64,000 nt of DNA from the NCBI GenBank assembly GCA_000473305.1, contig CP006772.1:992001-1056000 (forward strand), given 5' to 3'. Position numbers and translations under genes: made by a program. This stretch comes from Bacteroidales bacterium CF (lineage in GTDB: Bacteria > Bacteroidota > Bacteroidia > Bacteroidales > UBA932). The notes beneath the pieces were generated by a model. The model was given only the letters and a program-made list of their open reading frames with translations. It was not told the origin of the DNA and made no database searches. Positions 21,196-63,036 of this stretch are shown here, in pieces. How positions within the stretch are numbered: position 1 is the first letter of the stretch; every line of letters starts with the position of its first letter.

Positions 21196-21273
21196 TTTTA
21201 AACCATTCCACCCTTTTGCATATTCAGACTGTCCTATATACAAGAGGGCAAGGAAATCTTATTTCAGACTACA

Positions 21274-22449: not shown

Positions 22450-22473
22450 AATTACAAACTAACTTATCGTACT

Positions 22474-25800: not shown

Positions 25801-25812
25801 AAACTTCATGAA

Positions 25813-27243: not shown

Positions 27244-27270
27244 TTATAACTCATACTTATACTCAAGAAA

Positions 27271-28314: not shown

Positions 28315-28315
28315 T

Positions 28316-29428: not shown

Positions 29429-29429
29429 A

Positions 29430-30293: not shown

Positions 30294-30331
30294 AATTTAA
30301 CTACTTTAGTATAATCTAAAACTTAAACGAA

Positions 30332-31936: not shown

Positions 31937-32000
31937 TCTATAACGCATTAAATAAATTAATTAACAAATAAGAGCGGATTCAATTCTGCTAATTTTAAAG

Positions 32001-33518
32001 ATGAAAAAATTTCCTCTTTTAGCTTTAGCTTTGTCAATTTCTATTTTTGGAAGTCAAACTATGACAGCCCAGAGCAGGCAATTCAAAACTCCTGCAGAGG
32101 CAAGAGACTTCACAGAAGTCTCTAAATACGGCGAAATGGTTGAGTTTATACATCAACTTGATATCTCCTCAGACATTCTTACAGTTGAAAAGATTGGAGA
32201 ATCTGTAAAAGGGCGCGACCTGCTCATGCTTAAATTTTCCAGCTCAACATTTGGAGAAGATAAAAGAAAAATAAAGGTGCTTATACATGCTCAGCAGCAT
32301 GGCAACGAGCAATCTGGAAAGGAGGGAGCGCTCCTTCTGGCTCAGGAGCTGATAAAGCCTGAAAATGCACACCTTTTCAAAAATCTGGATCTAGCGCTTA
32401 TTCCTCAGGTCAATCCTGATGGATCGGAGCTGAATAGTCGCCGTAACGGTAACGGTATGGACCTGAACAGAAACCATCTCATCATGACTGAGCCTGAGGT
32501 GGTCGCTTTACACAAGATATTTGACAAATACCTTTTTGAGGTTACAATGGATGTCCATGAGTATTACCCTTATGGACAGACTTGGAAGGATTTCGGATAC
32601 AGGACCAATTCTGATATACTTATCGGGTTCAATACACATCCCACAATTCCGGAATCTATAAGAAAATATCAGCAGAAGAAAATAAAGCCATACTACTCTG
32701 CATTTCTGACGTCAAAGGGCGTATCAAACGCTATGTATAGTCCCGGAGGACCACCTGAACAGGATTATATCAGGTACAGTACATTCGACATAAACGACGG
32801 ACGCCAGAGTTACGGGATTCAAAATACATTCTCCTTTATTCAGGAGGGTATGAACGGAGTTGACGCACTTGTTGATAATCTGGCTCATCGTGCACATTCA
32901 CAGTTTTATGGGATGCTTGCCTTACTCAGATTTGTCTCCGAAAATCATACAGAGATGCAAGCTGTCGTAGCTAAAGAAAGACAACTTGAAAATATTACAG
33001 TTCCTGAAGTTCCCCTCCAGATGGAGCATTTTCCGGACGGAAGCAAGCTGGAACTTCCTGTATATTCATATTCGACAAACAGAGATTCAATCATCATTGT
33101 AAATGATTTCAGACCGGTGGTAAAACCTACCCTGACAATCAGCAGACCATGCGGTTATCTGTTCCCGAAAAGTCATCAGGATCTCATTGATTGGGCCTTC
33201 AGGCACGGTTTTGAGGTAAAACCTTTCAAGATGGATAAAAATACTATGTTGGAGCGAATGATTATTTCAAAAATAGATTCAATTGATTTTGAGAGAGACA
33301 CAATTGCAATTCCGCAGATTGAGGTGCGTAAGATAGAACCAAAAACGATTAATCTTGAAGAGTATATTTTTATCCCTACTTATCAGCTAAAGGGAAATAT
33401 GCTCATCACGGCAATCGAGCCGCAATCGGAACTAGGACTCGCCACATACAGCCAGTTTGCTTACCTGATGAAGGTAAACTCTACATACCCTGTTATCAGA
33501 GTAAGTTCAAATAGATAA
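32001..33518 (+). CDS. Exported M14-family zinc carboxypeptidase
   Basis: A 505-residue metallocarboxypeptidase with a signal peptide (MKKFPLLALALSISIFGSQTMTAQ). The zinc-binding H-x-x-E is in QHGNEQSGKEG, with further M14 signatures in PQVNPDGSELNSRRNGNGMD, LNRNH and VTMDVHEYYPYGQ (third His). A C-terminal extension of about 170 residues follows the catalytic domain. It should work in the periplasm, removing C-terminal residues from peptides, and is placed between the YfcC transporter and the racemase genes. Confidence 0.9.
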   Translation: MKKFPLLALALSISIFGSQTMTAQSRQFKTPAEARDFTEVSKYGEMVEFIHQLDISSDILTVEKIGESVKGRDLLMLKFSSSTFGEDKRKIKVLIHAQQHGNEQSGKEGALLLAQELIKPENAHLFKNLDLALIPQVNPDGSELNSRRNGNGMDLNRNHLIMTEPEVVALHKIFDKYLFEVTMDVHEYYPYGQTWKDFGYRTNSDILIGFNTHPTIPESIRKYQQKKIKPYYSAFLTSKGVSNAMYSPGGPPEQDYIRYSTFDINDGRQSYGIQNTFSFIQEGMNGVDALVDNLAHRAHSQFYGMLALLRFVSENHTEMQAVVAKERQLENITVPEVPLQMEHFPDGSKLELPVYSYSTNRDSIIIVNDFRPVVKPTLTISRPCGYLFPKSHQDLIDWAFRHGFEVKPFKMDKNTMLERMIISKIDSIDFERDTIAIPQIEVRKIEPKTINLEEYIFIPTYQLKGNMLITAIEPQSELGLATYSQFAYLMKVNSTYPVIRVSSNR

Positions 33519-33543
33519 AAAGTAATCATAAATAATTATTATC

Positions 33544-34647
33544 ATGAAAATTGAGAGAATTGAAATACGTCATACAAAAATGGACCTTGTTACCCCATTT
33601 ACAACATCAATGGGAACAGAGTATGATGAAGAGCACATAATGGTCAGAGTTGATGCTGAAGGTGTGACCGGTTGGGGTGAAAGCGTCGCAGAAGGAACTC
33701 CGTTCTACTCTTATGAGACAGTTCCGACAGCCTGGCACATCATGAAAGATTTTTTAATCCCTTCTATCATTGGCAAAGAGATCAATGAGGCATCCGATGT
33801 TGTTAAAATGTATGAGAGAGTCCGCGGACACATGATGGCAAAGGCCGGTATTGAGGCAGCCATCTGGGATGCGCTTGCAAAGAGTAAGGGAATCTCATTG
33901 TCCAAATTGCTCGGAGGAACCAGAGAGAAGATAAATATCGGTGTGAGTATCGGAATACCAACTTCAGCAAATGAATTGCTAAGGAATATTGAGCATTTTC
34001 TTGCAGAGGGTTATCAAAGAATCAAGATCAAGATAGCTCCGGGTCACGACCTTGAGCTTGTGAAAGCTGTAAGAAGGGAGTATCCTGATATAATGTTCCA
34101 GGTAGATGCCAACTCAGCATACACGCTTGCAGATGTAGACCTTTTCAAAAAAATGGATGACTACAATCTCTCTCTAATTGAGCAACCGCTCGGATATGAG
34201 GACATATACGACCATTCCAAATTGCAGCGTGAAATAAAAAGCCCGATCTGCCTTGATGAGAGCATCCATTCTCTTGATGATACCAGAGCAGCAATCGAGC
34301 TTAAGAGTTGCAGGATAATAAACATCAAGCCGGGCAGGGTAGGCGGTTATACCGAGTCCAAACTTATACACGACTATTGTGCCAGTATGGGCATCCCTGT
34401 ATGGCACGGAGGAATGCTTGAATCAGGTATAGGCCGTGCCGGAAATGTGGCACTTGCCTCTCTTCCAAACTTCACCCTTCCGGGAGACATATCTGCGAGC
34501 AAGAAGTATTATAAGGAGGACATTGTAGACCCTCCGTTCGTCGTGAATCCCGACGGGACAATGAACGTTCCAACCGGCCCCGGAATAGGTGTGGAGATTA
34601 ACATGAAGAATCTCGATAAATTCACGGTTAGGAGAGAATTTTTTTAG
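33544..34647 (+). CDS. Enolase-superfamily enzyme, N-succinylamino acid racemase/OSBS-like
   Basis: A 367-residue member of the muconate-lactonising subgroup of the enolase superfamily. It has the catalytic Lys pair in IKIKIAPG, metal ligands in QVDANSAY, LIEQPL and CLDESIH, and the second catalytic Lys in NIKPGRVGG, plus GGMLESGIGRA. This pattern fits the N-succinylamino acid racemase/o-succinylbenzoate synthase group, also related to dipeptide epimerases. There is no menaquinone gene nearby, so amino acid or dipeptide racemisation fits the peptidase context better than OSBS activity. It is the last gene of the block. Confidence 0.85.
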   Translation: MKIERIEIRHTKMDLVTPFTTSMGTEYDEEHIMVRVDAEGVTGWGESVAEGTPFYSYETVPTAWHIMKDFLIPSIIGKEINEASDVVKMYERVRGHMMAKAGIEAAIWDALAKSKGISLSKLLGGTREKINIGVSIGIPTSANELLRNIEHFLAEGYQRIKIKIAPGHDLELVKAVRREYPDIMFQVDANSAYTLADVDLFKKMDDYNLSLIEQPLGYEDIYDHSKLQREIKSPICLDESIHSLDDTRAAIELKSCRIINIKPGRVGGYTESKLIHDYCASMGIPVWHGGMLESGIGRAGNVALASLPNFTLPGDISASKKYYKEDIVDPPFVVNPDGTMNVPTGPGIGVEINMKNLDKFTVRREFF

Positions 34648-48790: not shown

Positions 48791-49354
48791 ATGGATAAGA
48801 AAACATCATTTGTCGACAGTGTAAATTCCCGTTCTCTTGATGCATTTGAAGATATTTTCAAACTTCACTACAAGGAACTTGTGTACTTTTCGAGTATCAT
48901 TTGCAATTCGATTCAGGATGCTGAAGATATTGTCCATGATGTCCTGATTCAATTATGGGAAAGTTCATATAAGTTTGAAAATCAGATTGCCCTGCGGTCA
49001 TTTTTGTATACAAGCACAAGAAATAAAACAATCAACTTTGTCAAGAGGTATAACAAGCAACTGAACGATATCTCATTTCTGGATATGAGTGATAGTAATG
49101 AGTCAATTATTGAAGCGATAACAGATGCAGAATTATTATCCCTCATCAATAAGGCTATTTCCCGCCTTCCTGCAGAGTGTGCTAAAGTAATGAAACTAAT
49201 ATTACAGGGACATTCCTCTGCCGAAATATCAGTCTTACTTGATTTGGCCCAGAGTACTGTAAGGGCTCAGAAGAGGCGTGGACTTTTACTATTACGTCAG
49301 TACATGCCAAATGAAGCATTAACATTTTTTATAATTTTTTTTAAAATTATTTAG
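48791..49354 (+). CDS. ECF RNA polymerase sigma factor (second locus)
   Basis: A 187-residue FecI-like ECF factor. Region 2 (FKLHYKELVYFSSIICNSIQ, DAEDIVHDVLIQLWES) and region 4 (LPAECAKVMKLILQGHSSAE, ISVLLDLAQSTVRAQKRRG) are clear, with a hydrophobic C-terminal tail. It precedes a FecR gene and a SusC with an STN domain and so probably governs the operon 50626-61958 by substrate sensing. It is distinct in sequence from the sigma factor at 20641. Confidence 0.93.
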   Translation: MDKKTSFVDSVNSRSLDAFEDIFKLHYKELVYFSSIICNSIQDAEDIVHDVLIQLWESSYKFENQIALRSFLYTSTRNKTINFVKRYNKQLNDISFLDMSDSNESIIEAITDAELLSLINKAISRLPAECAKVMKLILQGHSSAEISVLLDLAQSTVRAQKRRGLLLLRQYMPNEALTFFIIFFKII

Positions 49355-49402
49355 TCATTTTTTCCTGTTCGATTGCTCTATATAAAAAGAAATCGGATTT
49401 AT

Positions 49403-50536
49403 ATGACTGGTTTTGAAAAAATATCTGAATCGGCGCTGCGTTGTTTCAGATGGTTAATCCTCGGAGATGAGGATGTTAAAGGCTGTAATCTGTCTGATAC
49501 AGAGAGAAAAATAATTGAGAAGTATTCAGATGTGGATGTTCTTCAAAGGGAACTTGATCTTTTTGATTCAATTGACAATTCTAAAGCATATTTGAAATTT
49601 GTTGAGTCGGTAAGAAAGTCCGCGAGGGAGCGAAGGGCAAAATTGTTAAGAAGAACTTTTATAGGCGTATCCGCAGCAGCTGTTATACTTCTTCTTATAG
49701 TAGCAGGAGGTGTGTTTGGTGGAGGTGATGATGTCACTGTTGTGAATAAATATGCTTTGGCAGAATCTGAAAAAGTATTGCTTATTACTTCGGAAGGTGA
49801 GACATACTCGACCTCCGGTGAAATTAAGGTTGAGGATGAGAAGGTGGTTGCAGAGAAGAGCAAGCTTATTTCAACTGAAAGGGATTATGCAGAACAGGCT
49901 AAAATAAATGAATTGATCACCCCGGCAGGAGTAAGACAAAAGATTACGCTTCCGGATGGTTCCATCGTATGGCTTAATGCAGCCAGTTCATTAAAATTCC
50001 CGACAAATTTTGATGATACAGCAAGAGTGGTTAAACTTTGTGGTGAGGCATATTTCGATGTCGTAAAATCCTCGAGACCGTTTGTTGTAAAAATCGAAAA
50101 TGCCAGCATTATGGTCTACGGAACTACTTTTAATATATCATCCTACCAAAGTGCGTCGCTCTCAAATATTTCCCTTTACACAGGCTCAATCGGTCTAAAA
50201 ACAGACAGAAGTTCAATTAAGCTTATCCCGGGACATTATGTGGAAATAGATAATATGACTCAGCTTATCTCTGATCCGGAAGAGAATTTTTCTGACTCTC
50301 CGGACTGGATGAGAGGAAGAATGGAATTTCTTTCGCAACCTCTCGGAAAAGTCTTTGAGGTTATTGGCAGGTGGTATGGAGTTAATTATGAGATATCTCC
50401 TGAAATCAGAAATCTAGAGGTTACAATTATGATTTCCGACAAAACAAGTTTGGAGGAGCTGTCAGAGCTGCTTGAGATGACCCAGAATATTTCTGTTCTT
50501 AATGAAAACAATAAACTAGTAATAACCAAACACTGA
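49403..50536 (+). CDS. FecR-family anti-sigma factor (second locus)
   Basis: A 377-residue FecR-like regulator. A helix of about 20 residues (FIGVSAAAVILLLIVAGGVFGG) crosses the inner membrane; the periplasmic FecR domain carries LPDGSIVWLNAASSLKFP, GEAYFDVVKSSRPFVVKIEN and MVYGTTFNISSYQ, and a C-terminal domain like that of other Bacteroidetes FecR proteins follows. ATG 49403 (MTGFEKISE) is preferred over a TTG at 49373. The gap to susC holds the hairpin at 50551-50580. Confidence 0.92.
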   Translation: MTGFEKISESALRCFRWLILGDEDVKGCNLSDTERKIIEKYSDVDVLQRELDLFDSIDNSKAYLKFVESVRKSARERRAKLLRRTFIGVSAAAVILLLIVAGGVFGGGDDVTVVNKYALAESEKVLLITSEGETYSTSGEIKVEDEKVVAEKSKLISTERDYAEQAKINELITPAGVRQKITLPDGSIVWLNAASSLKFPTNFDDTARVVKLCGEAYFDVVKSSRPFVVKIENASIMVYGTTFNISSYQSASLSNISLYTGSIGLKTDRSSIKLIPGHYVEIDNMTQLISDPEENFSDSPDWMRGRMEFLSQPLGKVFEVIGRWYGVNYEISPEIRNLEVTIMISDKTSLEELSELLEMTQNISVLNENNKLVITKH

Positions 50537-50550
50537 TTAAATAAAAAAAA

Positions 50551-50580
50551 GATGTAACTGACTTGCAGGCCAGTTACATC
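50551..50580. other. Hairpin in the fecR-susC intergenic region
   Basis: GATGTAACTG (50551-50560) pairs perfectly with CAGTTACATC (50571-50580), 10-nt loop. On the plus strand it is preceded by eight A and followed by CGGAACC, so it is not a standard plus-strand terminator; on the minus strand it has a T run. It may be a processing or attenuation site for the susC operon. Confidence 0.55.
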
Positions 50581-50625
50581 CGGAACCAGATCTGAATAAC
50601 CTTAAATCAAATCTTTAACAAAACT

Positions 50626-53600
50626 ATGAAAAAAAAGCCATCCTTATTAAACTGGACCACAAAACTGGCTGCTTTTCTTCTGTTATTTTCCCTATGGTCG
50701 GATATGACCTTCGGGAACACAGGTGTGACAGAAGCAGCGGAGCAGCGTGTTACCCTTAAAATCAAAGAGGATAACCTTACAAATGTGATCCAGTCAATTA
50801 TGAAACAATCGGGTTGTGAAATCGTTTTTTTTACATCCCAAACGACATCCATAACATGTCGTAATATTTTTATCAGTTCTGAGAGTGCAGAAAAAGCTTT
50901 GGAAACAGTTCTAAAAGGAACAGGGCTGACATTTAGAAAACAAAACGGTAAATATGTTATCCTGCAGGATCCGGCCGGTAAAGTCCAAAGGGAGCAGAAG
51001 TTACAGGAGGTTACTATTTCCGGAAGAGTTACCGATAGTGGGGGAGAACCGTTACCGGCTGTTAACATAATCATTAAGGGAACAAAAAAAGGTACAAATA
51101 CTGATATTGACGGAAAGTATAGAATAAACGTTCCGGTAAATGGTGTTACCCTTCAGTTCTCTTTTTTGGGAATGGAGACAAAGGATGTCAAGATAGCAGC
51201 ATCTGACAATACCACTCTTAATGTTGTACTTAGAGAGTCAGATAATACTCTTAAAGAGCTCACATTTATATCCACCGGTTACCAGAAGATGAATAAAAGA
51301 GATATGGTAGGGGCGCTATCGACTATTAAGGCTGATGATATCCTTAGGCCGAATTACGTCTCTATTGACCAGATGCTTCAGGGAATAGTGCCGGGAATGA
51401 TTGTTACTAATACAAGTGCCAGGGCCGGAACAACACCATCAATTCAGATCAGGGGAACATCAACTCTTCTTGGAGACTCTTCTCCTCTGTGGGTTGTAGA
51501 CGGTATAATTCAGGAAGATCCAATTAAAATCACGGCAGCAACACTCCTTTCCGATGATATGAAGAATATTATTGGCAATCAGGTATCTTGGCTAAATCCT
51601 CAGGATATTGAAACAATAACCGTACTGAAAGATGCCTCATCTACTGCAATTTATGGTTCAAAGGCGTCAAACGGAGTAATTGTTATTACCACAAAACAGG
51701 CAAAAGACGGCAGTAACAGTCTTACTGTAAATTATACCGGCAGTGTAACTGTTAATGGCAGACCAAACTATGGTCAGTTTAATATGATGAACTCACAGGA
51801 GAGAATTCAGTTTGCCGATGAAGTATTTGCCTCAGGTGTTCCCTACTCATCGGTTCCACACTATGATTATTACAGTTATGAGGGTACAAAGAGGCTTCTC
51901 ATAGAAGGATATATGACTCAGGACGAGTTTAACGCTAAACGGACTTTTTTTGAAACGGGGAATACCGATTGGTTTAAGTTGCTTACAAGAAACGCAATAA
52001 GCCAGAACCAGAATTTAAGTCTCTCAGGCGGATCTAATAAAATGAGTTTTACATCCTCTTTGGCTTATACCAATCAGCAAGGGCAGGAGATAGGAAATGA
52101 TTCCAAAAGATACTCAGGCAGATTGGCTACAACATATAAAATAAGTGAAAGAGCGAGATTGACTATTTCAATGACAGGTAGCTATGTGGAAAATACCGGG
52201 TTTGGAAACGGAGTCAGTCCTCTGAATTACGCTATAAACACAAGCAGGGCAATTCCTGCATATGATGAAAATGGAAGTCTTGCGTTTTATCAGAAGGTAA
52301 GAACATATAAATATAATGTAATTCAGCCTTCCTTAGGATACAATATTATCAATGAGAGAAACAACTCATCGACTAATAGTATTAATATGAGATATAATGC
52401 AAATGCAGACTTTACTTGGAATCTTTTACCATGGTTGACATATAATTTTACCGGGGGCTATAACTACTCCGCCACCAACTTATCTACATATATGTCGGAG
52501 AAGACATATTATATTGCAAATAATTACAGGGGTTATGACTATGGTTCGGTACTGCCTGATTCTGATTATTTTAAGGCAGCCATTCTTCCTTTCGGCGGAG
52601 AGTACTTTACAAATGATGCAAGACAGAGTTCATACGATATACAGAATAAGATTTCTATGTTCTGGAACTTTAAAAATAACAGCAGACTTAATGTCCTGTT
52701 AGGACACGAACTCAGGTCTGCAACAAATGTGACAGTTGCAAATACCGTATGGGGCTATTCTAAAGAGAGAGGAGAGATAATTATAAAACCGACATTACCT
52801 ACAGATCTGGTTCCAACTGCCGGATCAATATATACCTATACAGGTTATGGAATTTTAGATAATCTATATTCAAACAGATGGAAAAAGACAAACCAGATAA
52901 ACAACTTTATGTCTCTCTTTTCGATATTGGCATATACATATAAAGACAAATATATTATAAATGCCAGTATAAGAAATGACTTTTCTAACCGTTTCGGACA
53001 AGATATAAATCGCCGGCTGGATCCTACATATTCACTCGGATTCTCCTGGAGAGCAGCAGATGAAAAATTTGTAAAAGATAATCTCCCGCAAATTACACAA
53101 TTAAACCTTCGCGCAACATATGGAATACAGGGTAATGCCCTGACAAATGAAAGTCCTGAGCTATTACTTAACAAGCAGTCAAAAAAGAGTGTTTTTAATC
53201 AATACTATTCTACAATCAGCAAGATTCCGAATCCTAATCTCTCTTGGGAGAGAACTACAAGCTGGAACTTTGGAGCAGACATTATGCTCTTTAATAAGAT
53301 CAGCTTGGTAATGGATTACTATACAAGAAGATCTAATGCTGTCATCAGCCAGAACATACCATTTGAATATGGTATTCTATCTACAACTATGAATGGTGGC
53401 ATTATATACAACAAAGGTGTTGAGGCGACTATATCATTCTCACCTATTAATACTAAAAATAAAGGATTTAGTATAAGTCTTAATTCATCCAAGAACTGGA
53501 ACACAACCGGGCCAACTGTTTCTACTACAACGCTTTCACAATACCTTACAGGTAGGAACGGAGTAATTATGAAGGAAGGTTATCCATTAAATGCATTTTG

Positions 53601-54249
53601 GTCCTACTCATTTGCAGGACTTGACCCGAACAACGGAAATCCTAAATTCAATCTGTTTGACACTGATCCTGCGGTTGCGAAAGCTGATCAGACATCTTTT
53701 CTGGTTTATTCCGGAGAGACAACTCCATCTTTTACCGGTGGTTTAAATCTTAATTTCAGATATAAATCACTCTCTGTAGGAACAGGATTCTCAATGCTTC
53801 TTGGCGGAAAGACAAGGCTTACCAATCCATATGCAGAATTCTCTTCCGGGCTGAAGTTACCATCCAGTGAAAGCAATGTAAGTCGCCAACTGGTTAACAG
53901 ATGGAAAAAATCCGGGGATGAGCTGCATACAAATATTCCTTCTATAAATCCGACAACTACTACACTGACAAGCCTTCCTAATGGTTCTTCCGGATATTTG
54001 GTGGATTTTTGGTCGCTTTCGAATACACAGGTTGTAGACGCATCGTTTTTACGATGCAGAAATATTGATATTAGTTGGAGATTAAACAAAAATACAGTGG
54101 ATTACCTTGGACTAAAGAGTTTGTCGGTAACCGCCACACTAAATAATATATTTGTGATTGCCTCAAAAAGATTTAACGGACTGGATCCGGAATTGAAAAA
54201 CAGTGTTATGCCTAAATCATTATCACTGTCAATATCAATTGGTCTATAA
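50626..54249 (+). CDS. SusC/RagA-type TonB-dependent transporter with STN domain (second locus)
   Basis: A 1207-residue outer-membrane transporter with signal sequence, STN domain (about residues 43-105, IKEDNLTNVIQSIMKQSGC), carboxypeptidase regulatory-like domain (about 128-200, GRVTDSGGEPLPAVNIIIKG), plug (KDASSTAIYGSKASNGV) and barrel, ending SLSISIGL. The presence of STN links it to the sigma/FecR pair before it. It is followed by susD and then six genes encoding a lipoprotein, thioredoxin-fold and protease-fold proteins, which points to protein or peptide import rather than polysaccharide. The gene is of full length. Confidence 0.96.
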   Translation: MKKKPSLLNWTTKLAAFLLLFSLWSDMTFGNTGVTEAAEQRVTLKIKEDNLTNVIQSIMKQSGCEIVFFTSQTTSITCRNIFISSESAEKALETVLKGTGLTFRKQNGKYVILQDPAGKVQREQKLQEVTISGRVTDSGGEPLPAVNIIIKGTKKGTNTDIDGKYRINVPVNGVTLQFSFLGMETKDVKIAASDNTTLNVVLRESDNTLKELTFISTGYQKMNKRDMVGALSTIKADDILRPNYVSIDQMLQGIVPGMIVTNTSARAGTTPSIQIRGTSTLLGDSSPLWVVDGIIQEDPIKITAATLLSDDMKNIIGNQVSWLNPQDIETITVLKDASSTAIYGSKASNGVIVITTKQAKDGSNSLTVNYTGSVTVNGRPNYGQFNMMNSQERIQFADEVFASGVPYSSVPHYDYYSYEGTKRLLIEGYMTQDEFNAKRTFFETGNTDWFKLLTRNAISQNQNLSLSGGSNKMSFTSSLAYTNQQGQEIGNDSKRYSGRLATTYKISERARLTISMTGSYVENTGFGNGVSPLNYAINTSRAIPAYDENGSLAFYQKVRTYKYNVIQPSLGYNIINERNNSSTNSINMRYNANADFTWNLLPWLTYNFTGGYNYSATNLSTYMSEKTYYIANNYRGYDYGSVLPDSDYFKAAILPFGGEYFTNDARQSSYDIQNKISMFWNFKNNSRLNVLLGHELRSATNVTVANTVWGYSKERGEIIIKPTLPTDLVPTAGSIYTYTGYGILDNLYSNRWKKTNQINNFMSLFSILAYTYKDKYIINASIRNDFSNRFGQDINRRLDPTYSLGFSWRAADEKFVKDNLPQITQLNLRATYGIQGNALTNESPELLLNKQSKKSVFNQYYSTISKIPNPNLSWERTTSWNFGADIMLFNKISLVMDYYTRRSNAVISQNIPFEYGILSTTMNGGIIYNKGVEATISFSPINTKNKGFSISLNSSKNWNTTGPTVSTTTLSQYLTGRNGVIMKEGYPLNAFWSYSFAGLDPNNGNPKFNLFDTDPAVAKADQTSFLVYSGETTPSFTGGLNLNFRYKSLSVGTGFSMLLGGKTRLTNPYAEFSSGLKLPSSESNVSRQLVNRWKKSGDELHTNIPSINPTTTTLTSLPNGSSGYLVDFWSLSNTQVVDASFLRCRNIDISWRLNKNTVDYLGLKSLSVTATLNNIFVIASKRFNGLDPELKNSVMPKSLSLSISIGL

Positions 54250-54265
54250 TATAAATAGCTTGAAA

Positions 54266-55774
54266 ATGAAAAAAATACTATATATATCGATTATTTTGAT
54301 TGTAACCTCTTGCTCGGAATTTTTGGAGCCAAAGTCTCAAACCGAGTATGTACCGAGGGATATCAATGCCCTGAGCGAACTTCTTATAGGGGATGCCTAT
54401 CTGGACCCCAACAACCAGTCTGCATCGGCTTTCGGGTACAACGAAATACTTACTGATGACTGGGCTTGTACAGTTGAGAATTGTGTAAATTCCAACAATG
54501 AATCCCGCTATGCAAAATATAAGGCAATATATGCCTGGCATCCTGATATGTTTAAAATTTCCAACGAATTTGGAGTATACTACAATACATGGAAAACATT
54601 CTATAAATATATATTAGGATGCAATGCTGTATTGGATTATCTTGATAACGTCGAGGGTAGCGATGAAGAGAAGAGTTATGTAAAGGGTCAGGCGCTGGCT
54701 CTTCGGGCCTTCTACTATTTCAACCTTGTGAATCTGTACGGGGAGCCCTATTCTTACAATAAAAAGGCGTTTGGAGTGCCGTTGAAACTAAACAGTAATC
54801 TTGATATAAACTACCCTTCACGTGCAACCGTAGAAGAGGTCTATATTCAGATTGTTAAGGACTTGAATGAAGCCGAAGAATCATTCAGCTCTCTTCCAAA
54901 AAGTAAGCAGTTCATTAAAGACGGACGTATTACGATGCCGATGATTCAGTTAATGCAAGCGAGAGTTGCTTTATTTGTAGAGGATTTCGACAGGGTTATT
55001 CAGTATGGAAATAAAGTTATCACTGACTGGGGTTTTAAGCTCCTGGACCTAAATTCATTTACCTCAACATCTGCACAGCCGTACTATAATTTTACCAGCT
55101 ATAGCAATCCCGAGGCGATCTGGCTTTTCGGAAGCAGCATAGATATGTACAAATTCACAACGGAGTATCTGTATAAAATACCTACATCTACATCCCAAAC
55201 AAGAAGGATGTTCAATGCATCCCAATCTCTATTGAGTTCATTCGAGGCCTCCGATCTAAGAAAAAACAACTACATTCTTAAGGAAAGTACCTCCGTTTCC
55301 AATTATGTCCCTGCCGGAAAACTCCCGGTTGGAACTACTTATTTGGCATTATCAACAGAGTTCGGAAGGGCTTTCAGACTTTCTGAGGCATATCTGATGC
55401 TTGCGGAGGCTTACTATATGAAAAACAGACCGGAGGATGCAGTTACACTTCTTGAAGAATTAAGAATCAACCGTTTTCTCAAGTCTTCAGGTACCAATTA
55501 TAAAGTTCCGGCAGGCAGTGAATCTGGAATAGCTCTGTACAATTTTATAAAATCAGAGCGCCGTAGAGAGATGTGTTTCGAAGGACTCAGATGGTACGAC
55601 ATGAGAAGATGGGGAATGGAGAGTTTTTCACGTGAGTGGAAAGAGGAGGGAGTTGTAGTTGCAACCTTTACCATGGAGAAGAACGACCCGGCTTATACGC
55701 TGCCAATACCGTACGATGTTATTGATCTGAATCCGAATCTGGTTCAAAACAAATTATCAACTGCTAAATATTGA
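54266..55774 (+). CDS. SusD/RagB-family lipoprotein (second locus)
   Basis: A 502-residue SusD-like lipoprotein (MKKILYISIILIVTSC, Cys16 as lipid site). Family signatures: KGQALALRAFYYFNLVNLYG, RLSEAYLMLAEAYY and RRREMCFEGLRWYDMRRWG. I chose ATG 54266 because the earlier in-frame start at 54203 lies inside susC and adds a non-signal N-terminus. It captures the ligand for the SusC encoded 16 bp upstream and is followed by a lipoprotein gene after 2 bp. Confidence 0.94.
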   Translation: MKKILYISIILIVTSCSEFLEPKSQTEYVPRDINALSELLIGDAYLDPNNQSASAFGYNEILTDDWACTVENCVNSNNESRYAKYKAIYAWHPDMFKISNEFGVYYNTWKTFYKYILGCNAVLDYLDNVEGSDEEKSYVKGQALALRAFYYFNLVNLYGEPYSYNKKAFGVPLKLNSNLDINYPSRATVEEVYIQIVKDLNEAEESFSSLPKSKQFIKDGRITMPMIQLMQARVALFVEDFDRVIQYGNKVITDWGFKLLDLNSFTSTSAQPYYNFTSYSNPEAIWLFGSSIDMYKFTTEYLYKIPTSTSQTRRMFNASQSLLSSFEASDLRKNNYILKESTSVSNYVPAGKLPVGTTYLALSTEFGRAFRLSEAYLMLAEAYYMKNRPEDAVTLLEELRINRFLKSSGTNYKVPAGSESGIALYNFIKSERRREMCFEGLRWYDMRRWGMESFSREWKEEGVVVATFTMEKNDPAYTLPIPYDVIDLNPNLVQNKLSTAKY

Positions 55775-55776
55775 TT

Positions 55777-56748
55777 ATGAAAAATATAAAAACATATATA
55801 GTCATTGTTCTTGCTTCATTGTTGACACTCTCATGCTATAAAGAGGATCCAATTATACCGTCAACATCCGAAGGCTCTGAAAGATTTACTTTCCCTCAGG
55901 GAAACAGCGACTTCGATTTAGAAGCGGCCAGGATTAACGAACAATTTGGAGTAAAAATCATATATAAGGACTTCAAGAATGTTGATTTTAATCTTTCATG
56001 GACCTCTCCCGGTTTTGGGAAAGTTGGATACGCTATTCCTCAGGATCAGCAAAAAGAGGCAGTAATGTTTGCCGTTGACCAAATTTTCGGTAACCTGACA
56101 CCTCAAATTACGAAAAAGGTACTCCCTCCATACTTCTATTTGGCAGATAGCATTTATCAAAAGACTGTTGTGGGCTACCTCGAATATATTTCTGCAACAA
56201 CATACAACTATGCGGGACTGGATTTCTGGTGTTTCACATGGAATGGGGTGAGACCTTGGACCAAAAACAACAACGATGGAACGATATCATATAGTTCGCA
56301 AGTTTATAGACCAAGAAACTCCTTCGAATATTTCTATCGAAGAGGAGTAATGCTAAAGGAGATCTATAAGAAAGCGGTAACAATGGGTAATATCAAGGTT
56401 CCCGAGGGATTCAGCTCCGATTTAGATTTTGTTACTGCAGTAAAATCTGCAACAGGAACAGAGAATGATCCAAACTACTATTTGAAAAGAGGTTTTCCGG
56501 GTATTATGAATTCTGCTTTAAACTTTAATCTTAGTAAGCTATCTTCAATTTCCAGTACCGGACCGACACAAATTTTCATAGACTATATTCACCTATGTAT
56601 GAGATATTCAGCAGACTCTATAGAAATTCTTTGTCCGAAAGCAAAATACCCCATCATACATCAAAAGTATCCTATCGTAATAAATTATATGAAGGATAAA
56701 TATGGCGTGGATCTTGAAAAAATATCCAAAAAACCGCAGATTCCTTAA
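55777..56748 (+). CDS. Lipoprotein related to SusCD-associated zinc-metallohydrolase lipoproteins, no HExxH seen
   Basis: A 323-residue lipoprotein (lipobox LTLSCYKE). The layout, with an early segment QFGVKIIYKDFKNVDFNLSW, then DQQKEAVMFAVDQIFG and a conserved FYLADSIYQ, recalls the lipoproteins with HExxH often found next to SusCD pairs. No HExxH occurs in this protein; the expected region reads FEYFYRRGVMLKEIYKKA. If the relationship is right, it is a non-catalytic copy. ATG 55777 is used; a TTG at 55771 would give the start MIMK. It lies 2 bp after susD and 3 bp before the thioredoxin gene. Assignment to this family is tentative. Confidence 0.65.
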   Translation: MKNIKTYIVIVLASLLTLSCYKEDPIIPSTSEGSERFTFPQGNSDFDLEAARINEQFGVKIIYKDFKNVDFNLSWTSPGFGKVGYAIPQDQQKEAVMFAVDQIFGNLTPQITKKVLPPYFYLADSIYQKTVVGYLEYISATTYNYAGLDFWCFTWNGVRPWTKNNNDGTISYSSQVYRPRNSFEYFYRRGVMLKEIYKKAVTMGNIKVPEGFSSDLDFVTAVKSATGTENDPNYYLKRGFPGIMNSALNFNLSKLSSISSTGPTQIFIDYIHLCMRYSADSIEILCPKAKYPIIHQKYPIVINYMKDKYGVDLEKISKKPQIP

Positions 56749-56751
56749 TTA

Positions 56752-57750
56752 ATGAAAAAAATATTTACACTATTGGTGCTCACCGCTATTGCGGGGGGCA
56801 GTGCGACAGCTCAGTTCCGGCTGAATTGTAAGATAAGAGCGATAGGCTCCGTAAACGTCACACTTACAAACCTTAACAACGACACTCTAATTAATGGAGT
56901 TGTAAGAAGTGGAGAGGAGTTTTCCTCAGGAATCCTTGATATCAGGGAGGATCTCTACAGGCTTAGTATTGGAATGATTAAGAGGGATGTGATTCTTGGT
57001 AATTCTCCGATTCAGATAAAGGGGTTCGTAGATGCAAAAAATGAGAATACATCAAATATTCAAATTATAGGGTCCCCACAGTCTGATAGTTTGCATAATG
57101 CTTTAGGAATATTTAAGAACTGGGGAAAAGGTGCCTGGGATTGGACTAAGATAGAAAATGGCTTCTCTCCGATAGTTCTTACCTCTGTTGTTGTCCTGAA
57201 CGAACAATTTTTCGCCCAGAAATATGAAATTCTTAAATTGCTGAATGAGAGCTATTCGTATGAGGTTAAAAAAAATCTGCTCAGCAGTAGAATAAGAGAG
57301 ATATTTACAACTGCCGATAATTTTAAGGTAGGAGCAAAATCAACTGATTTTACACTTCCTGATAGAAATGGTGTAATGCACTCCACTTCCCAAATTAGAG
57401 GTAAACTTATTCTTGTGGATTTTTGGGCCTCGTGGTGCGGCCCTTGCCGCAAGGAGATGAAAAGCCTTCAGAATATATACGAAGAGATTAAGGGAGAAGA
57501 CCTTGTATTTATTAGCGTCTCTTTGGATGATGACAGAGAGAAATGGATTAAAGCAATGGATATAGACAAGATTCCCTGGCTCGCTTTATGGGACGATAGG
57601 GGCTTCTATAACACTCCATTCCAGAAACAATACGGCTTTTCTCAGATTCCTTTCATAATTCTCATAGGTAAAGATGGTAAAATATTAGCCAGAGGGCTGA
57701 GAGGTGAAGATGTAAAAGCAGAAATTTTAAAACACAGAAATAAAAAATAG
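56752..57750 (+). CDS. TlpA/ResA-like exported thiol-disulphide oxidoreductase
   Basis: A 332-residue exported protein (MKKIFTLLVLTAIAGGSATAQ) with an N-terminal beta-rich domain (DUF4369-like) and a C-terminal thioredoxin/AhpC-TSA domain with active site FWASWCGPC (Cys229, Cys232) and the later cis-Pro segment QIPFIILIGKDG. It reduces or isomerises disulphides in the periplasm or at the outer membrane. It sits 3 bp after the lipoprotein gene and 3 bp before the subtilase-like gene, which links thiol chemistry to the locus. Confidence 0.93.
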   Translation: MKKIFTLLVLTAIAGGSATAQFRLNCKIRAIGSVNVTLTNLNNDTLINGVVRSGEEFSSGILDIREDLYRLSIGMIKRDVILGNSPIQIKGFVDAKNENTSNIQIIGSPQSDSLHNALGIFKNWGKGAWDWTKIENGFSPIVLTSVVVLNEQFFAQKYEILKLLNESYSYEVKKNLLSSRIREIFTTADNFKVGAKSTDFTLPDRNGVMHSTSQIRGKLILVDFWASWCGPCRKEMKSLQNIYEEIKGEDLVFISVSLDDDREKWIKAMDIDKIPWLALWDDRGFYNTPFQKQYGFSQIPFIILIGKDGKILARGLRGEDVKAEILKHRNKK

Positions 57751-57753
57751 CAG

Positions 57754-59493
57754 ATGAAAAAGATATTAACATTATTTATAGCGTCAATAGTAGTAATCAG
57801 CATGGCTGCACAGTCCGGTCCTGAGGATTATGCCAGGACAAGTGTTGCAAAGGGTAGCTGGTACAAAAGCGCTCCGGAATCAGGTATTTACGGGATTGAT
57901 CTTGAAGGGGCGAAGAGATTGGTGAAAGATAGAAAGATAAAAAAGAGACCAATTGTTGCGTTGATTGGAAACGGAATAGATGCCGAGCATGAAGCACTTA
58001 AAGAATCATTGTGGTTCAACCCGAAGGAGAAACCGGACGGGATTGATAATGATAATAACGGTTATATTGATGATATCAACGGCTGGAACTTTATCGGATC
58101 GAAAGATGGAACGACAATGGATTATACGACAAAGGAGGGAATTCGTGAATGGCTGAGACTCAAGGATAAATATGGCGATCTGATTTTTGACGGTGAGAAA
58201 TTCTTTAAATATGTGAATGGCAAAAGAGAATATTTAACTACCCCGGTTGATAAGAAAGAGTATAAATATTTTTACGATCTTTTACTTAGCAATGAGGCAC
58301 CCGTTGGAAGAACCTATGCAGGATATGTTACAGCATTCATGCTTAAAGAGTATGTTGAAAAGTGGGATAAGGAGATAACGGAACGTTTCAGTAATAAACA
58401 AAAGTGTGAAATATCACTTGATGATTTCAAGAAGTTTATGACTGAGAAGAACATTGAAAATGACTCACTGCAAAGTATTGCATACTCTTTCAGTTATTTA
58501 TACGGAAGTATGGTCAAGGGTTATATGAAAGATAAAACCGTTGACTCGACCTGGAATATGATTTACAGAAATTTTGCTAATAAGCAGATACAGTTTTCTC
58601 TGAAAAATTTCCAAACGGAATTTAATACAACTGCGATAGATAACAGAGCCACTATTGTCGGAGATAATCCTAATGATATAAATGACTTTAAATATGGTAA
58701 TAATTCACTGTTGACATCAGCGTCTATGTCAGGTACAATGAACTCAGGAATAATAGCTGGTCGGGATGTCAACAACTCCGGCTTTTCCGGAATTTTCCCT
58801 GAAGCAAAGGTGATGACACTTGTAACCAATGCGGTTAATGGAGAGCCTTATGTGAAGGATTTGGCTCTGGCAATAAAATATGCTGTTAGTAACAGTGCGG
58901 ATATAATTCTTTTGCCATATCAGTTATCGTTCATTCCTGCCGACAAGATGGATTGGATCTATGAAGCAATTGGAGAAGCGGAGAAGAGGGGAATTCTGGT
59001 TATTGTCCCTGTGTGGGAGGCCGGAGAGGATCTTGCTGTTAAGAAATATTATCCCTCAAGAGATAGTTATAAGGGAAAATCATTTAAGAATATTATGACC
59101 GTTGCCAATTCTGACTCTTTGGGCTTGCCTTCACAGATTTCCAACTATGGAAAAGAGGGCCTTGACACATATGCCCCTGGAAATCTAATTTACTCTACGC
59201 TTCCCGGAGATATATATAAAATAGCTTCATCTTCAACTTTCGGGGCAATAGTGGCTGCCGGCTCGGCGGCATTCATCAAGGCATATTTCCCTGAGCTAAG
59301 CGGAGCCGATATACGAGAACTTCTGCTGAAAAACTGCACAGACAGAAGCGGTCTGGAGGTGGAAAAGAGCATTCGTCAAGGGGAAAAAATTGAGAAGGAG
59401 TTGTTTTTATTCGAGCAGTTATGTGAATCTGCGGGGATTCTTAATTTGAAAAAGAGTGTGGAGGCTGCATTAAAGTATAAAGTGAAAAAATAA
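57754..59493 (+). CDS. Subtilisin-fold (S8) protein lacking all three catalytic residues
   Basis: A 579-residue exported protein (signal ending MAAQ) with clear S8 (subtilase) features but a missing triad. The Asp motif reads VALIGNGID (residues 68-76), with Gly72 where subtilases have the catalytic Asp. The His motif, normally HGTHVAG, reads SGTMNSG (326-332), with Ser326 for His. The Ser motif, normally GTSxAAP, reads SSTFGAI (493-499), with Thr495 for Ser. Between them an inserted region of about 200 residues follows the first motif. The fold looks retained, but it cannot act as a normal serine protease; a binding or scaffold role is an inference. It lies in the same tight operon as the thioredoxin and aspartic-protease genes. 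Confidence 0.9.
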   Translation: MKKILTLFIASIVVISMAAQSGPEDYARTSVAKGSWYKSAPESGIYGIDLEGAKRLVKDRKIKKRPIVALIGNGIDAEHEALKESLWFNPKEKPDGIDNDNNGYIDDINGWNFIGSKDGTTMDYTTKEGIREWLRLKDKYGDLIFDGEKFFKYVNGKREYLTTPVDKKEYKYFYDLLLSNEAPVGRTYAGYVTAFMLKEYVEKWDKEITERFSNKQKCEISLDDFKKFMTEKNIENDSLQSIAYSFSYLYGSMVKGYMKDKTVDSTWNMIYRNFANKQIQFSLKNFQTEFNTTAIDNRATIVGDNPNDINDFKYGNNSLLTSASMSGTMNSGIIAGRDVNNSGFSGIFPEAKVMTLVTNAVNGEPYVKDLALAIKYAVSNSADIILLPYQLSFIPADKMDWIYEAIGEAEKRGILVIVPVWEAGEDLAVKKYYPSRDSYKGKSFKNIMTVANSDSLGLPSQISNYGKEGLDTYAPGNLIYSTLPGDIYKIASSSTFGAIVAAGSAAFIKAYFPELSGADIRELLLKNCTDRSGLEVEKSIRQGEKIEKELFLFEQLCESAGILNLKKSVEAALKYKVKK

Positions 59494-59497
59494 AGTT

Positions 59498-60676
59498 ATG
59501 GTTAATAATAATCTTTGGTCGAGGATAACAATTACACTTTGTGTTATCCTCTCCTCACTCTCCTATAATAATGCTTTCTCGCAGTCGACGACTGCGGTTA
59601 TTCCTTATGAGATGTCATCCGGGAAGATGATTGTCAAGATGTATCTTAACGAAAAGGAGGAGCGTTTCATTTTTGATACCGGAGCAGGCAAGACATCTCT
59701 CTCAACCCGGTATTGCCACGAAAACAACTATATTGTCTTCGATTCCACACTTATCAGTGATGCCACGAGCAATACTTCATACTATAAAATGACAAGAATC
59801 GGATCATTGCTGACAACAGATCAAAAAATCAGATTTACATCAATTCCGACTTTGATTATGCCGGAGCCCTCGCCCCTAAGATGTTTGAATGTTATAGGAA
59901 TAATAGGAAGCGACATCCTTCAGAATCTGATATGTACCATTGATCCTAATAGCAAGACAATAACCCTTGCAACTGCCGAAAAGCCGGTTGCCGAGTCATT
60001 CAGATATTCTCACAGGTTTGTGGAAAACAGCTTTATGCCTATATTCTCGCTTTATCTTAACGGAGTTGAGACAACAGTGCTTTTTGACACAGGTTGTTCA
60101 TCATTTATGACCCTTAAAGACAAAGATTTTGAAAATATGAAAAAGTTAAATGCGGTAAAGGTTGTAAAAGAGGGGGAGGGAATAACCAACATCGGACTTT
60201 CCGGCAAACTCGAATCAATAAGCAATTACCTTGTATATATAAAAGATATGAGGGTCGGCCCCGTTAAATTTGCAAATGTAGTTACCGAAACATCAACCAC
60301 TCCACACACATTGATGGGCACAAATTTTCTCAATTTTGCCAAAGTGATTATAGATTATCCTAGAAGATTGATTTACTACCTGCCATATACCTCAGAACCA
60401 ATTACCCCTGTATATAAAACTACAAATTTTGGAATTACAATCAAGGATAGAAAACTTGTAGTCACTCATATCTGGAAAAACCTTGAGGGAGTATTGTCAG
60501 AGGGGGATTCAATCACTCATATTAATGGAACCGAGACTGGTGAATACGATTTTTGTGATCTCTATTCGGGGATAAAAGAGTTGAAAGTTCCTGGTAAAAA
60601 AATGTTCACGATTAGAAAAAAAGATGGTAAGAGCATTGAATTGGAATATATAGTCGAAAATTTTGAATTTAAATAA
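59498..60676 (+). CDS. Two-lobed aspartic protease-like protein with PDZ domain
   Basis: A 392-residue exported protein (hydrophobic N-terminus ending NAFSQ). Two retropepsin-like lobes carry FIFDTGAGKTSLS (DTGA, residues 60-63) and VLFDTGCSSFMTL (DTGC, 197-200), so both catalytic Asp residues for a single-chain aspartic protease are in place. The C-terminal part (about 300-390, with GVLSEGDSITHINGTE) is a PDZ domain for peptide binding. It follows the dead subtilase after 4 bp and precedes the thioredoxin fusion. It is the only protease-like product of the locus with apparently intact active-site residues. Confidence 0.9.
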   Translation: MVNNNLWSRITITLCVILSSLSYNNAFSQSTTAVIPYEMSSGKMIVKMYLNEKEERFIFDTGAGKTSLSTRYCHENNYIVFDSTLISDATSNTSYYKMTRIGSLLTTDQKIRFTSIPTLIMPEPSPLRCLNVIGIIGSDILQNLICTIDPNSKTITLATAEKPVAESFRYSHRFVENSFMPIFSLYLNGVETTVLFDTGCSSFMTLKDKDFENMKKLNAVKVVKEGEGITNIGLSGKLESISNYLVYIKDMRVGPVKFANVVTETSTTPHTLMGTNFLNFAKVIIDYPRRLIYYLPYTSEPITPVYKTTNFGITIKDRKLVVTHIWKNLEGVLSEGDSITHINGTETGEYDFCDLYSGIKELKVPGKKMFTIRKKDGKSIELEYIVENFEFK

Positions 60677-60683
60677 GAGTACA

Positions 60684-61958
60684 ATGAAAAAAAATATATT
60701 ATTGCTATTAATTAGCTTTTTATCAATGGATCTGTTAGCACAAGTAGCAGAGACAAAGACAGAGACACTTCCATTTAGAGAGATAGACGGTCGTATTGTG
60801 CTGACAGTGACAATGAACGGAAAAGAGGGAGACTTTATTTTAGATATGGCAGGGAAATGTGCACTACTTCCGGAATTCGCTGAAAAGTCCGGGATTAAGG
60901 ATATTAAACCAAAAGACGACCGTAATGACAATTTTCTTTATAAACATGTGCAAACCAGCGGTAAGTGTACAATAAATACAATCTCAATCGGCAATAACAT
61001 TTTTGCCAATTCTCTTTCAGCCCTCATCATATCCGGAGAATCAGCAGAATACCTCAGAAAATTGGGAATCTCAGGCACAATTGGCGGTTCATTGCTTCAA
61101 AATGTTGTGATTACGATTGATAAAAAAAATAAAAAAATTTATGCTTCGACGCCATTCAAACCATCATTTATAAGCACTGCGGAGAGAACTTACTGTAAAA
61201 TTCTGCCTGGAGTAACGCCTGAATTTCAGATATCAATAAACGGAAATCCTATACAGGTTATATTGGATACATGGGAGCACGGGCTTGTTTCATTAAATTC
61301 AGAATCGCTTCTACCGGTCAAAGGAATAAAGAAGGTTTCGGGAATGATTTCAGGGAAAGGTTATAGTGATGATGTTAATGCCGTTCAGGCCGCTCGTGTT
61401 GACAATGTCTCTTTTATAAATGTAACAATCAAAAATGGAATTGTAACTGTAAATCCCTTGTTTATAAAACCGGTTGTCGGTCTCTCTATGTTGGATTACG
61501 GGGTTATTTCTGTTGATTACCAAAGATCTAAAATATATTTTCAATCTTATGATAAAACAATAATAAAGGAGGAACAAAAGAGAGAATTGGCAAAAGTAGA
61601 GCCTGGTAAAGTCAATCCAATAACTAAGGATGAGTTTATTGAATATATTTTCAACTACAAGAGCGGAGATGAATTTTCTCTAAAGGGTGACAAACCTGTT
61701 ATTATTGATTTTTGGGCGACATGGTGCGGACCCTGCAAAAAGCTACTGCCGGAGCTGGAAAAATTAGCATTAAAATATAAGGACAGGGTTATCTTCTATA
61801 AGATTAATGCCGATTTGGAGAAAGAGTTGTGTTCAAAATTCAATATAAATGCTTTGCCTACCCTAATTATGGCAGCTCCCGGCAAGGCACCGATTTTTGA
61901 AATCGGAGACAAGCCGGAAAAAATAATTGATATAATAGAAAATATACTATTGAAATAA
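60684..61958 (+). CDS. Degenerate two-lobed aspartic protease-like protein fused to a thioredoxin domain
   Basis: A 424-residue exported protein (signal peptide ending LLAQ). The N-terminal part matches the aspartic-protease-like paralogue at 59498, but the active-site motifs are altered: FILDMAGK (residues 52-58, DMA instead of DTG) and VILDTWEHGL (192-201, DTW instead of DTG). The Asp residues remain but the Gly of each motif is gone. The C-terminal domain is an intact thioredoxin with DFWATWCGPCKK (Cys348, Cys351) and cis-Pro in NALPTLIM. I use ATG 60684; the TTG at 60663 would overlap the preceding gene. A terminator follows, closing the operon. Confidence 0.88.
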   Translation: MKKNILLLLISFLSMDLLAQVAETKTETLPFREIDGRIVLTVTMNGKEGDFILDMAGKCALLPEFAEKSGIKDIKPKDDRNDNFLYKHVQTSGKCTINTISIGNNIFANSLSALIISGESAEYLRKLGISGTIGGSLLQNVVITIDKKNKKIYASTPFKPSFISTAERTYCKILPGVTPEFQISINGNPIQVILDTWEHGLVSLNSESLLPVKGIKKVSGMISGKGYSDDVNAVQAARVDNVSFINVTIKNGIVTVNPLFIKPVVGLSMLDYGVISVDYQRSKIYFQSYDKTIIKEEQKRELAKVEPGKVNPITKDEFIEYIFNYKSGDEFSLKGDKPVIIDFWATWCGPCKKLLPELEKLALKYKDRVIFYKINADLEKELCSKFNINALPTLIMAAPGKAPIFEIGDKPEKIIDIIENILLK

Positions 61959-62031: not shown

Positions 62032-62690
62032 TCAGAATACAACACGAACTAATGCTGTGGGCAAAAATCCCTGCTGATATGTATATGATGTTTTTCCTGT
62101 AGATGGATCGAACGATTCAGAATAGATGTTATCTCTGTCTGTGACGTTTATCAGGTCTATACCACATTCAAAGGTAGCTCCACGAAAATTATATTTATAG
62201 GTAACTTTAGCATCGGCCTTAAGGTAATCCTTATTTCTCTTCGAATAGGCTTTTAAATCGTCGTATACTACTTTTCCCGATGCCAATGATGCTTCGTAAT
62301 CGACCTCCAGGGAACGTATTCCTCCACTCCAGACAACTCTGAAGTTAAAATCTACAGAACTGTTTTTGGTAAACGGGAATTCAAAACCAAGAAGACAGTT
62401 AGTTGCATAGTTTGATGCATACTTGGTACTTCTCCATATATTATCACTTGGTTTGTATTTTGAATCGAAAAGTGACGCTGTAATTAATAAATACCAGTTC
62501 TTACTCAGATATTTTTCAAGCGTTAATTCTATTCCATAGTTTTTCCCCAGGCCGTTATTTACCAGACTGTCTTTGTCTTCTGTGCCATTGTAATATGTTG
62601 AACCTAAATTTAATACGCAAAAATTTGAAGCCCTTGGTTCAACCGGGATATCCCATAGATCTTGATAATATGCTTCCAGCTTGGGGAGGA
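62032..62690 (-). pseudogene. 3' remnant of a TonB-dependent receptor gene (5' part lost)
   Basis: The minus-strand frame is open from 62032 to 62748 without an ATG, GTG or TTG codon before 62286, so a start-codon search finds only the last 84 residues. Reading upstream gives barrel segments with KLEAYYQDLWDIPVEPR, GLGKNYGIELTLEKYLSKNW and FRVVWSGGIRSLE, then GATFECGIDLINVTDRDNIY and the final QGFLPTALVRVVF. This is the C-terminal third of an outer-membrane TonB receptor barrel. Recognisable sequence stops near 62690, where an unrelated gene fragment on the other strand begins. It is a broken gene. Confidence 0.8.
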
Positions 62691-63036
62691 TAATAAGGGA
62701 AATGTATTTGCGAAAAGGGTTGGGGGTGTCAGGTGCTTTTTCAATGATTCAGGAAACAGATGGGTTAATGATACTACAATTTCAATCCTTTATGGTGATA
62801 TTTCTAAGGAACCTTTTTATAATCCTTCTGTAATGGGCTTAATTCCTCAGGTTAATGAACTATATGTTAAAAACAGCAGAAATAAGATGGTTCCGTTAAC
62901 AGAGACAGGATGGGATAAAAATGGTGATAATCCCACCCATTTAGTTTTATACTTTACCTCGAGTTATGAAGGAATTAAATTTACCGGTTCTACAGGATCG
63001 GTTTTATGGGTAGATGATATCAGATTTGTCTATTGA
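62683..63036 (+). pseudogene. 3' remnant of a PCMD-domain protein gene (5' part lost)
   Basis: The plus-strand frame from about 62683 encodes a C-terminal segment with FYNPSVMGLIPQVNELYVKN, then HLVLYFTSSYEG and SVLWVDDIRFVY. This pattern matches the end of PCMD (putative carbohydrate metabolism) domain proteins of Bacteroidetes, which are usually exported SusCD-associated proteins. No signal peptide or start is present; the nearest start codon (TTG 62662) lies inside the neighbouring TonB-receptor remnant on the other strand. Together with that remnant it marks a deletion or inversion scar. Confidence 0.65.

Follow-up and report, generated by a model that had tools for sequence, protein, structure and literature searches.

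The window analysed here is C1:992001-1056000, a stretch of 64,000 nucleotides from the 2.66 Mb single-contig genome of Bacteroidales bacterium CF. Its positions 48791..61958 hold an operon in which a regulated SusC/SusD import pair is followed by proteins with protease and thioredoxin folds (Table 1). The initial annotation had listed nine genes on the same strand, separated by 2-7 bp from susD onward. The list of open reading frames and the Pfam and NCBIfam matches give the same nine co-directional genes in the same order, with gaps of 2, 3, 3, 4 and 7 bp; these are computed with ATG starts for SusD (54266, picked within the open reading frame 54203-55774), the lipoprotein (55777) and the last gene (60684).

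Table 1. Genes of the operon, with positions in the window
Gene	Product	Position	Strand	Family match (E)
1	ECF-type (extracytoplasmic function) sigma factor	48791..49354	+	PF04542 1.5e-9, PF08281 1.7e-7
2	FecR-type anti-sigma factor	49373..50536	+	PF04773 6.9e-16, PF16344 1.5e-10
3	SusC/RagA TonB-dependent transporter, N-terminal STN-like domain	50626..54249	+	TIGR04056 5.8e-179
4	SusD/RagB lipoprotein	54266..55774	+	PF14322 1.6e-23, PF07980 2.4e-22
5	Lipoprotein, degenerate TIGR04549/Peptidase_Mx1 zinc-metallopeptidase fold	55777..56748	+	
6	TlpA/ResA-like thioredoxin, CGPC	56752..57750	+	PF13905 5.5e-20
7	Pseudo-subtilase, S8 fold, catalytic residues gone	57754..59493	+	PF00082 2.4e-18
8	Two-lobed aspartic protease, DTGA/DTGC intact, C-terminal PDZ-like domain	59498..60676	+	PF13650 2.5e-10, two stretches
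9	Degenerate two-lobed aspartic-protease fold (DMAG, DTWE) fused to thioredoxin (CGPC)	60684..61958	+	

The whole nine-gene order is found in two more genomes, G035 and G018, with differing neighbours; there the first four genes were identified by Pfam and the last five by alignment, and sigma factor genes occupy the equivalent position in both. The transporter of the window is a SusC/RagA barrel by its score against TIGR04056 (597.6 bits, cut-off 368), and the SusD protein encoded directly downstream scores 80.4 bits against PF07980 (cut-off 23.1). The STN domain initially assigned to SusC is clear in the G035 orthologue (41.1 bits), falls slightly below the Pfam cut-off of 28.4 in the window (27.2 bits) and gives no match at E 1e-5 in G018. 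Reading by eye, a surface-lipidated appearance is confined to SusD and the gene 5 product, while the proteins of genes 6-9 have ordinary signal peptides with no lipobox. Genes 6-9 thus more likely encode periplasmic proteins than binding modules at the cell surface.

The subtilase of gene 7 has lost its catalytic residues. At the columns where active S8 proteins with this layout carry Asp, His, the oxyanion Asn and Ser, it has G, S, E and T. Across nine orthologues Gly always replaces the Asp, S, G, P or Q stands in place of the His and E or D in place of the Asn, and the Ser column holds T, S, I, F or E, the G035 orthologue retaining only the Ser of the catalytic set. The triad is broken in all nine, which sets them apart from active S8 peptidases, and they form one clade (branch support 100/99); in the outgroup S8 proteins all four residues are present in 10 of 11. 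A subtilase fold with no triad had been proposed at the outset, and the loss is now seen to extend to the oxyanion Asn. In a sample of 395 genomes of the phylum (genome frequencies here and below count the window's own genome), the pseudo-subtilase is matched at E below 1e-100 in the window's own genome only; 34 others match it at 1e-60 to 1e-93, and the triad is intact in all six of these that were read. Within the family, 6 of 139 genomes match at E below 1e-120. A subtilase of another clade, in genome G318 (L037, 1477-3141), reads D/Q/N/G at the four columns, as confirmed by translation, and is on that reading an independent degenerate subtilase.

Gene 5, described at first simply as a lipoprotein, indeed looks lipidated by its signal end (TLSC-YKEDP), but its zinc-metallopeptidase fold, which makes it a third degenerate protease, had been overlooked. 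Its fold is that of TIGR04549/Peptidase_Mx1 (hhalign E 2.9e-14). Its score against TIGR04549 itself, 16.6 bits, lies far from the cut-off of 75, and among nine family sequences scanned in NCBIfam four give weak matches (best E 3.4e-4) and the rest none. Loci of TIGR04549, a substrate import-associated zinc metallohydrolase lipoprotein, have SusD and a further lipoprotein; they resemble the operon in the position of this gene after a SusD-like gene and in the fold. The true members, however, keep the zinc motif HExxH (present in the three that were fetched), whereas none of the 20 members of the gene 5 family has it. In the window's genome gene 5 is single-copy at E 0.01 or better.

The one protease predicted to be active is that of gene 8. 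DTG or DSG motifs occur in both lobes of all 11 sequences compared (10 core, 1 outgroup), one of them having DSG in lobe 2, and by these motifs gene 8 is an intact two-domain aspartic protease. The expectation of a single intact aspartic protease is borne out, the gene being kept in all nine genomes with the core set. The PDZ domain also expected on it receives no Pfam call; a profile of six sequences gives a weak match to PDZ chains of solved structures (best E 4e-5), which makes such a domain likely. By profile, gene 8 also matches PDB 9iy9 (E 6e-8), a putative endopeptidase of Bacteroides fragilis with a 420-residue chain, matched from residue 155 onward and showing no thioredoxin fusion within the matched part. 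In gene 9, D-M/L-A/S-G in lobe 1 and D-T-W in lobe 2 replace DTG/DSG in all five sequences. Its description as a degenerate aspartic protease fused to thioredoxin therefore holds for the fusion and the lost DTG context, with the qualification that both catalytic aspartates are retained (5/5); the aspartic fold is likely inactive. The C-terminal thioredoxin scores 84.5 bits against PF00085 and has an intact CxxC motif (CGPC in three of five, CIPC in two), and gene 6 is a TlpA/redoxin-type thioredoxin with CGPC by Pfam.

Conserved synteny in relatives, proposed as a check on the original idea, is observed well beyond the two complete copies. The core (gene 5, pseudo-subtilase, aspartic protease) is found in six further genomes, G103, G141, G835, G809, G797 and G824, and since the full order also recurs in two genomes with other neighbours, the gene set is judged to be more than chance. 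The order SusC-SusD-lipoprotein-(TlpA)-pseudo-subtilase-aspartic protease is shared by the window, G035, G018, G103, G835 and G809. TlpA is missing from the G103 locus, which comprises SusC, SusD, gene 5, the pseudo-subtilase, two aspartic proteases and the fusion; the G141 locus has genes 5-9 and an M16 peptidase, separated from their own FecR-SusC-SusD by about 14 kb. This stretch, between SusD and the lipoprotein on contig 10 (L103 14893 to L064 9368), contains a phage-type integrase and is apparently a mobile element inserted in the operon. In G835, G809, G797 and G824, all from the window's family, each core gene is present; SusD lies upstream in the first three, being cut by the contig start in G797, and no aspartic-thioredoxin fusion is seen in the four, the G835 contig ending 750 bp past the protease. 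In all nine genomes the pseudo-subtilase adjoins the aspartic protease, and gene 5 lies next to it or one gene away. In a sample of 344 genomes of the order, the same three genomes give the strong matches to gene 5 (E below 1e-40 with a profile of three), to the pseudo-subtilase and to the gene 9 N-terminus (both E below 1e-100), and among 60 relatives gene 9 is matched beyond its thioredoxin part in G035 and G018 only.

In G809 (L120 623-3316), pseudo-subtilase and aspartic protease form a single 897-aa open frame. The end of the pseudo-subtilase, GKRYG, continues directly as GHAVREQIQRKTDTIPFE, and the stop, the spacer and the second signal peptide are gone; GHAVREQIQRKTDTIPFE matches the mature start of the separate G835 protein, QVQRQTDTIPFE. 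This natural fusion points to a physical partnership.

The thioredoxin parts are less constant. The fusion gene 9 occurs in five of the nine core genomes and TlpA between the lipoprotein and the pseudo-subtilase in four, with a TlpA-like gene 336 bp 3′ of the protease in G797; on this distribution thioredoxin parts are common but optional, and the redox step is best placed as an accessory of the core. The earlier picture, in which two CGPC proteins would open disulphides, is weakened by this, although thioredoxin folds are present in 14 of the 20 wider loci described below. A disulphide step as the defining feature was rejected, part of the core set having no thioredoxin parts; the substrate may still be rich in disulphides.

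A horizontal origin of the operon was weighed by comparing its identities with those of three core genes. Proteins 5-9 are 92, 85, 79, 87 and 76% identical to those of G035, against 67, 92 and 70% for the three genes; for G018 the values are 61, 45, 50, 42 and 48%, against 67, 87 and 73%. The ratios of nonsynonymous to synonymous substitution (dN/dS; Nei-Gojobori, own script, the single pair window and G035) are 0.093, 0.145, 0.124, 0.082 and 0.070 for genes 5-9, the dS of gene 9 being near saturation (1.94). In this genome pair the degenerate genes are constrained like the intact protease, under purifying selection. Between window 55777-61958 and L023 10255-16427 of G035, dS climbs along the operon from 0.40 to 1.94, a rise that may reflect a recombination mosaic, perhaps of the upstream part.

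Gene 5 also marks a wider set of 20 loci, which are those found here and not a random sample; membership is less sure for five of them, which rest on profile matches at E 1.1e-18 or weaker. A SusD-family gene lies directly upstream in 18, the exceptions being G141 contig 10 and G824. Beyond the nine core loci, the payload genes are metzincin DUF4953/DUF5117 proteins (G338, G141-C12 and G323-C4), TlpA or thioredoxins (G323-C7, G004, G094 and G240), TlpA with S41 (G366) and an aspartic protease with a double thioredoxin (G361); in G323-C13 FecR and SusC flank an M16 gene, and a TlpA gene lies 716 bp past gene 5. G250 has none. The related loci thus carry metzincin, S9, S41, M16 and aspartic peptidases, with a peptidase fold in 15 of 20, a thioredoxin fold in 14 (a count that takes in the distant TlpA of G797 and G323-C13) and either or both in 19. 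In G323-C4, a second metzincin paralogue without HExxH, as read by eye, stands beside the intact one, together with a thioredoxin-S9 peptidase fusion (L065 12447-14756 and 14760-17933).

No carbohydrate-active enzyme (CAZyme) family appears when the nine genes are matched to Pfam at E 0.1, or in the scanned payload genes of related loci, in line with the stated absence of glycoside hydrolases, and a polysaccharide utilisation locus (PUL) was rejected on the Pfam result for the operon. Glycoside hydrolase-like genes of L102, L064 and L098 lie close by but, as read by eye, form separate units. Among solved structures the SusC is nearest to PDB 8ypu/8ypt (8ypu 6e-86), followed by RagA (6sli, 3e-60) and, further down, BT_2264 (5fq6, 1e-30). 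RagAB of Porphyromonas gingivalis and BT2263/BT2264 of Bacteroides thetaiotaomicron have, like the operon, a TonB-dependent SusC/RagA barrel with a SusD/RagB lid and are termed peptide systems in the parts of the sources covered (PMC7782687, PMC11817032), in which the pseudo-protease set and the thioredoxin fusion are not among the features described. The levan and dextran utilisomes of B. thetaiotaomicron offer a second comparison: surface lipoproteins assemble on SusCD and capture substrate, according to the portion of the source covered (PMC7618045), a binding role that gene 5 may fill, although the operon has protease folds and no glycoside hydrolase. BT4240-50 and the BT3013 PUL of the same species are likewise SusCD loci with peptidases, for glycoprotein, and the latter is described in the covered part of its source as having a peptidase and no CAZymes; their peptidase is M60-like and, unlike in the operon, no thioredoxin figures in the main text (PMC11992087). 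A literature search gave no description of this gene set among the matches listed. Judged by its genes, the operon is filed as a probable further variant of peptide SusCD (RagAB-like) loci, outside TIGR04549, active S8 peptidases and PULs.

We favour, with a probability of roughly 0.6, a RagAB-like import machine in which a protein or peptide would be captured, imported and processed in the periplasm, the pseudo-subtilase probably partnering the aspartic protease. The SusCD-type uptake of protein or peptide first proposed is supported by the lack of CAZymes and by the peptidase payloads of related loci. The sigma/FecR/STN-SusC relay would turn the operon on when substrate is present; SusD and the gene 5 lipoprotein, a metallopeptidase fold without HExxH, would grip it at the surface without cutting, and SusC would bring it in via TonB. 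For the steps after import, we infer that the intact aspartic protease cleaves while the pseudo-subtilase acts as a substrate-presenting scaffold or regulator, a partnership that would account for their adjacency throughout the core genomes and their fusion in G809. In the loci that have them, the TlpA-like protein and the thioredoxin with the aspartic fold may reduce disulphides or hold them; the dead aspartic fold of gene 9 possibly serves its thioredoxin as a peptide-docking module. More speculatively, and with clearly less confidence, the operon could be a protein-eating counterpart of the glycan utilisome built mostly from dead proteases of three catalytic classes. The polypeptide would be caught at the surface by a dead metalloprotease; in the periplasm, the one live aspartic protease would have a dead subtilase as its obligate partner, and a dead pepsin-like domain would dock a thioredoxin onto the chain as it enters, so that a single complex unfolds and cuts proteins linked by disulphides.

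Several points weigh against the import machine. Lost catalytic residues are no proof of binding, and localisation is deduced from signal peptides and lipoboxes read by eye. The nearest SusC structure is 8ypu/8ypt, ahead of the peptide importers RagA and BT_2264. The protease fusion was found once, in a draft genome that is 71% complete. G824 (L122 1-565) has no SusD before gene 5, with 565 bp to the contig start; this segment holds AT-rich tandem repeats and apparently non-coding sequence, where other genomes have SusD. Finally, no peptidase gene is seen in 5 of the 20 wider loci, and G250 has neither peptidase nor thioredoxin.

The protease folds could instead be decaying remnants in an ordinary peptide-uptake locus whose work is done by SusCD, TlpA and one protease. 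Catalytic motifs are gone in three of the four protease-fold genes, and the G318 subtilase shows that an S8 protein of another clade can also degenerate; yet dN/dS values of 0.07-0.12, similar to that of the intact protease, full-length frames with shared fixed changes across several families (D to G in 9/9, DTW in 5/5), and a single pseudo-subtilase clade that retains its neighbours make decay highly improbable. Plain pseudogenisation was rejected on dN/dS and conservation. The FecR/STN regulation could also be that of a ferric-citrate-like relay in a system that takes up a protein or peptide carrying iron or haem, in which dead folds grip the metal-bearing protein and the thioredoxins and aspartic protease open it. 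STN-SusC with sigma/FecR is, however, usual for glycan loci too, which counts against this account, and no haem, siderophore or metal gene lies among the nine genes or four scanned neighbours; we regard it as unlikely. In its favour, the part of a Riemerella iron-limitation RNA-seq table that was covered lists a TIGR04549 gene whose neighbours are RagB and SusC genes (B739_0101-0103), the point being presence in the table, whatever the direction of change (PMC5429918).

If SusCD were a partner and not a nutrient importer, the operon might mature the cell's own envelope or surface proteins, or control their quality, in a thiol-dependent way; this would suit the thioredoxin-fold genes in 14 of the 20 lipoprotein-marked loci and the PDZ-like domain on the protease. 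A complete SusC-SusD pair with its own sigma/FecR, and an occurrence so patchy (only 3 of the 344 genomes of the order match strongly) that it fits an optional nutrient or niche trait better than housekeeping, render it distinctly unlikely. That patchiness would also suit capture and destruction of disulphide-bearing antimicrobial or signal peptides, such as host defensins or bacteriocins, for defence and not for food, as would the way in which the operon joins import to disulphide-reductase folds and a single selective protease. This seems very unlikely, there being no direct evidence in its favour and no thioredoxin part inside four of the nine core loci (with the reservations on G797 and G835 given above).

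In the gene-poor gap 3′ of the operon, a short open reading frame (62662-63036) has a match to the PCMD domain that covers just its final 38 positions and is probably a gene remnant; it is followed at 63554 by an S41 peptidase gene. The window holds a second sigma/SusC/SusD locus (20641-34647), apparently also for the use of peptides: it has M20, S51 and M14 peptidases, together with genes for a protein with a cleaved-adhesin domain, a DcuC-type permease and a member of the enolase superfamily.

SusCD loci for glycans are understood well, protein uptake by Bacteroidota much less so. This compact, recurrent operon, with its natural fusion of pseudo-protease and protease, would provide a test case for inactive protease folds as substrate-handling subunits. 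The gene 5 family without HExxH, in turn, may mark SusCD loci that can be predicted to import peptides and not sugars.

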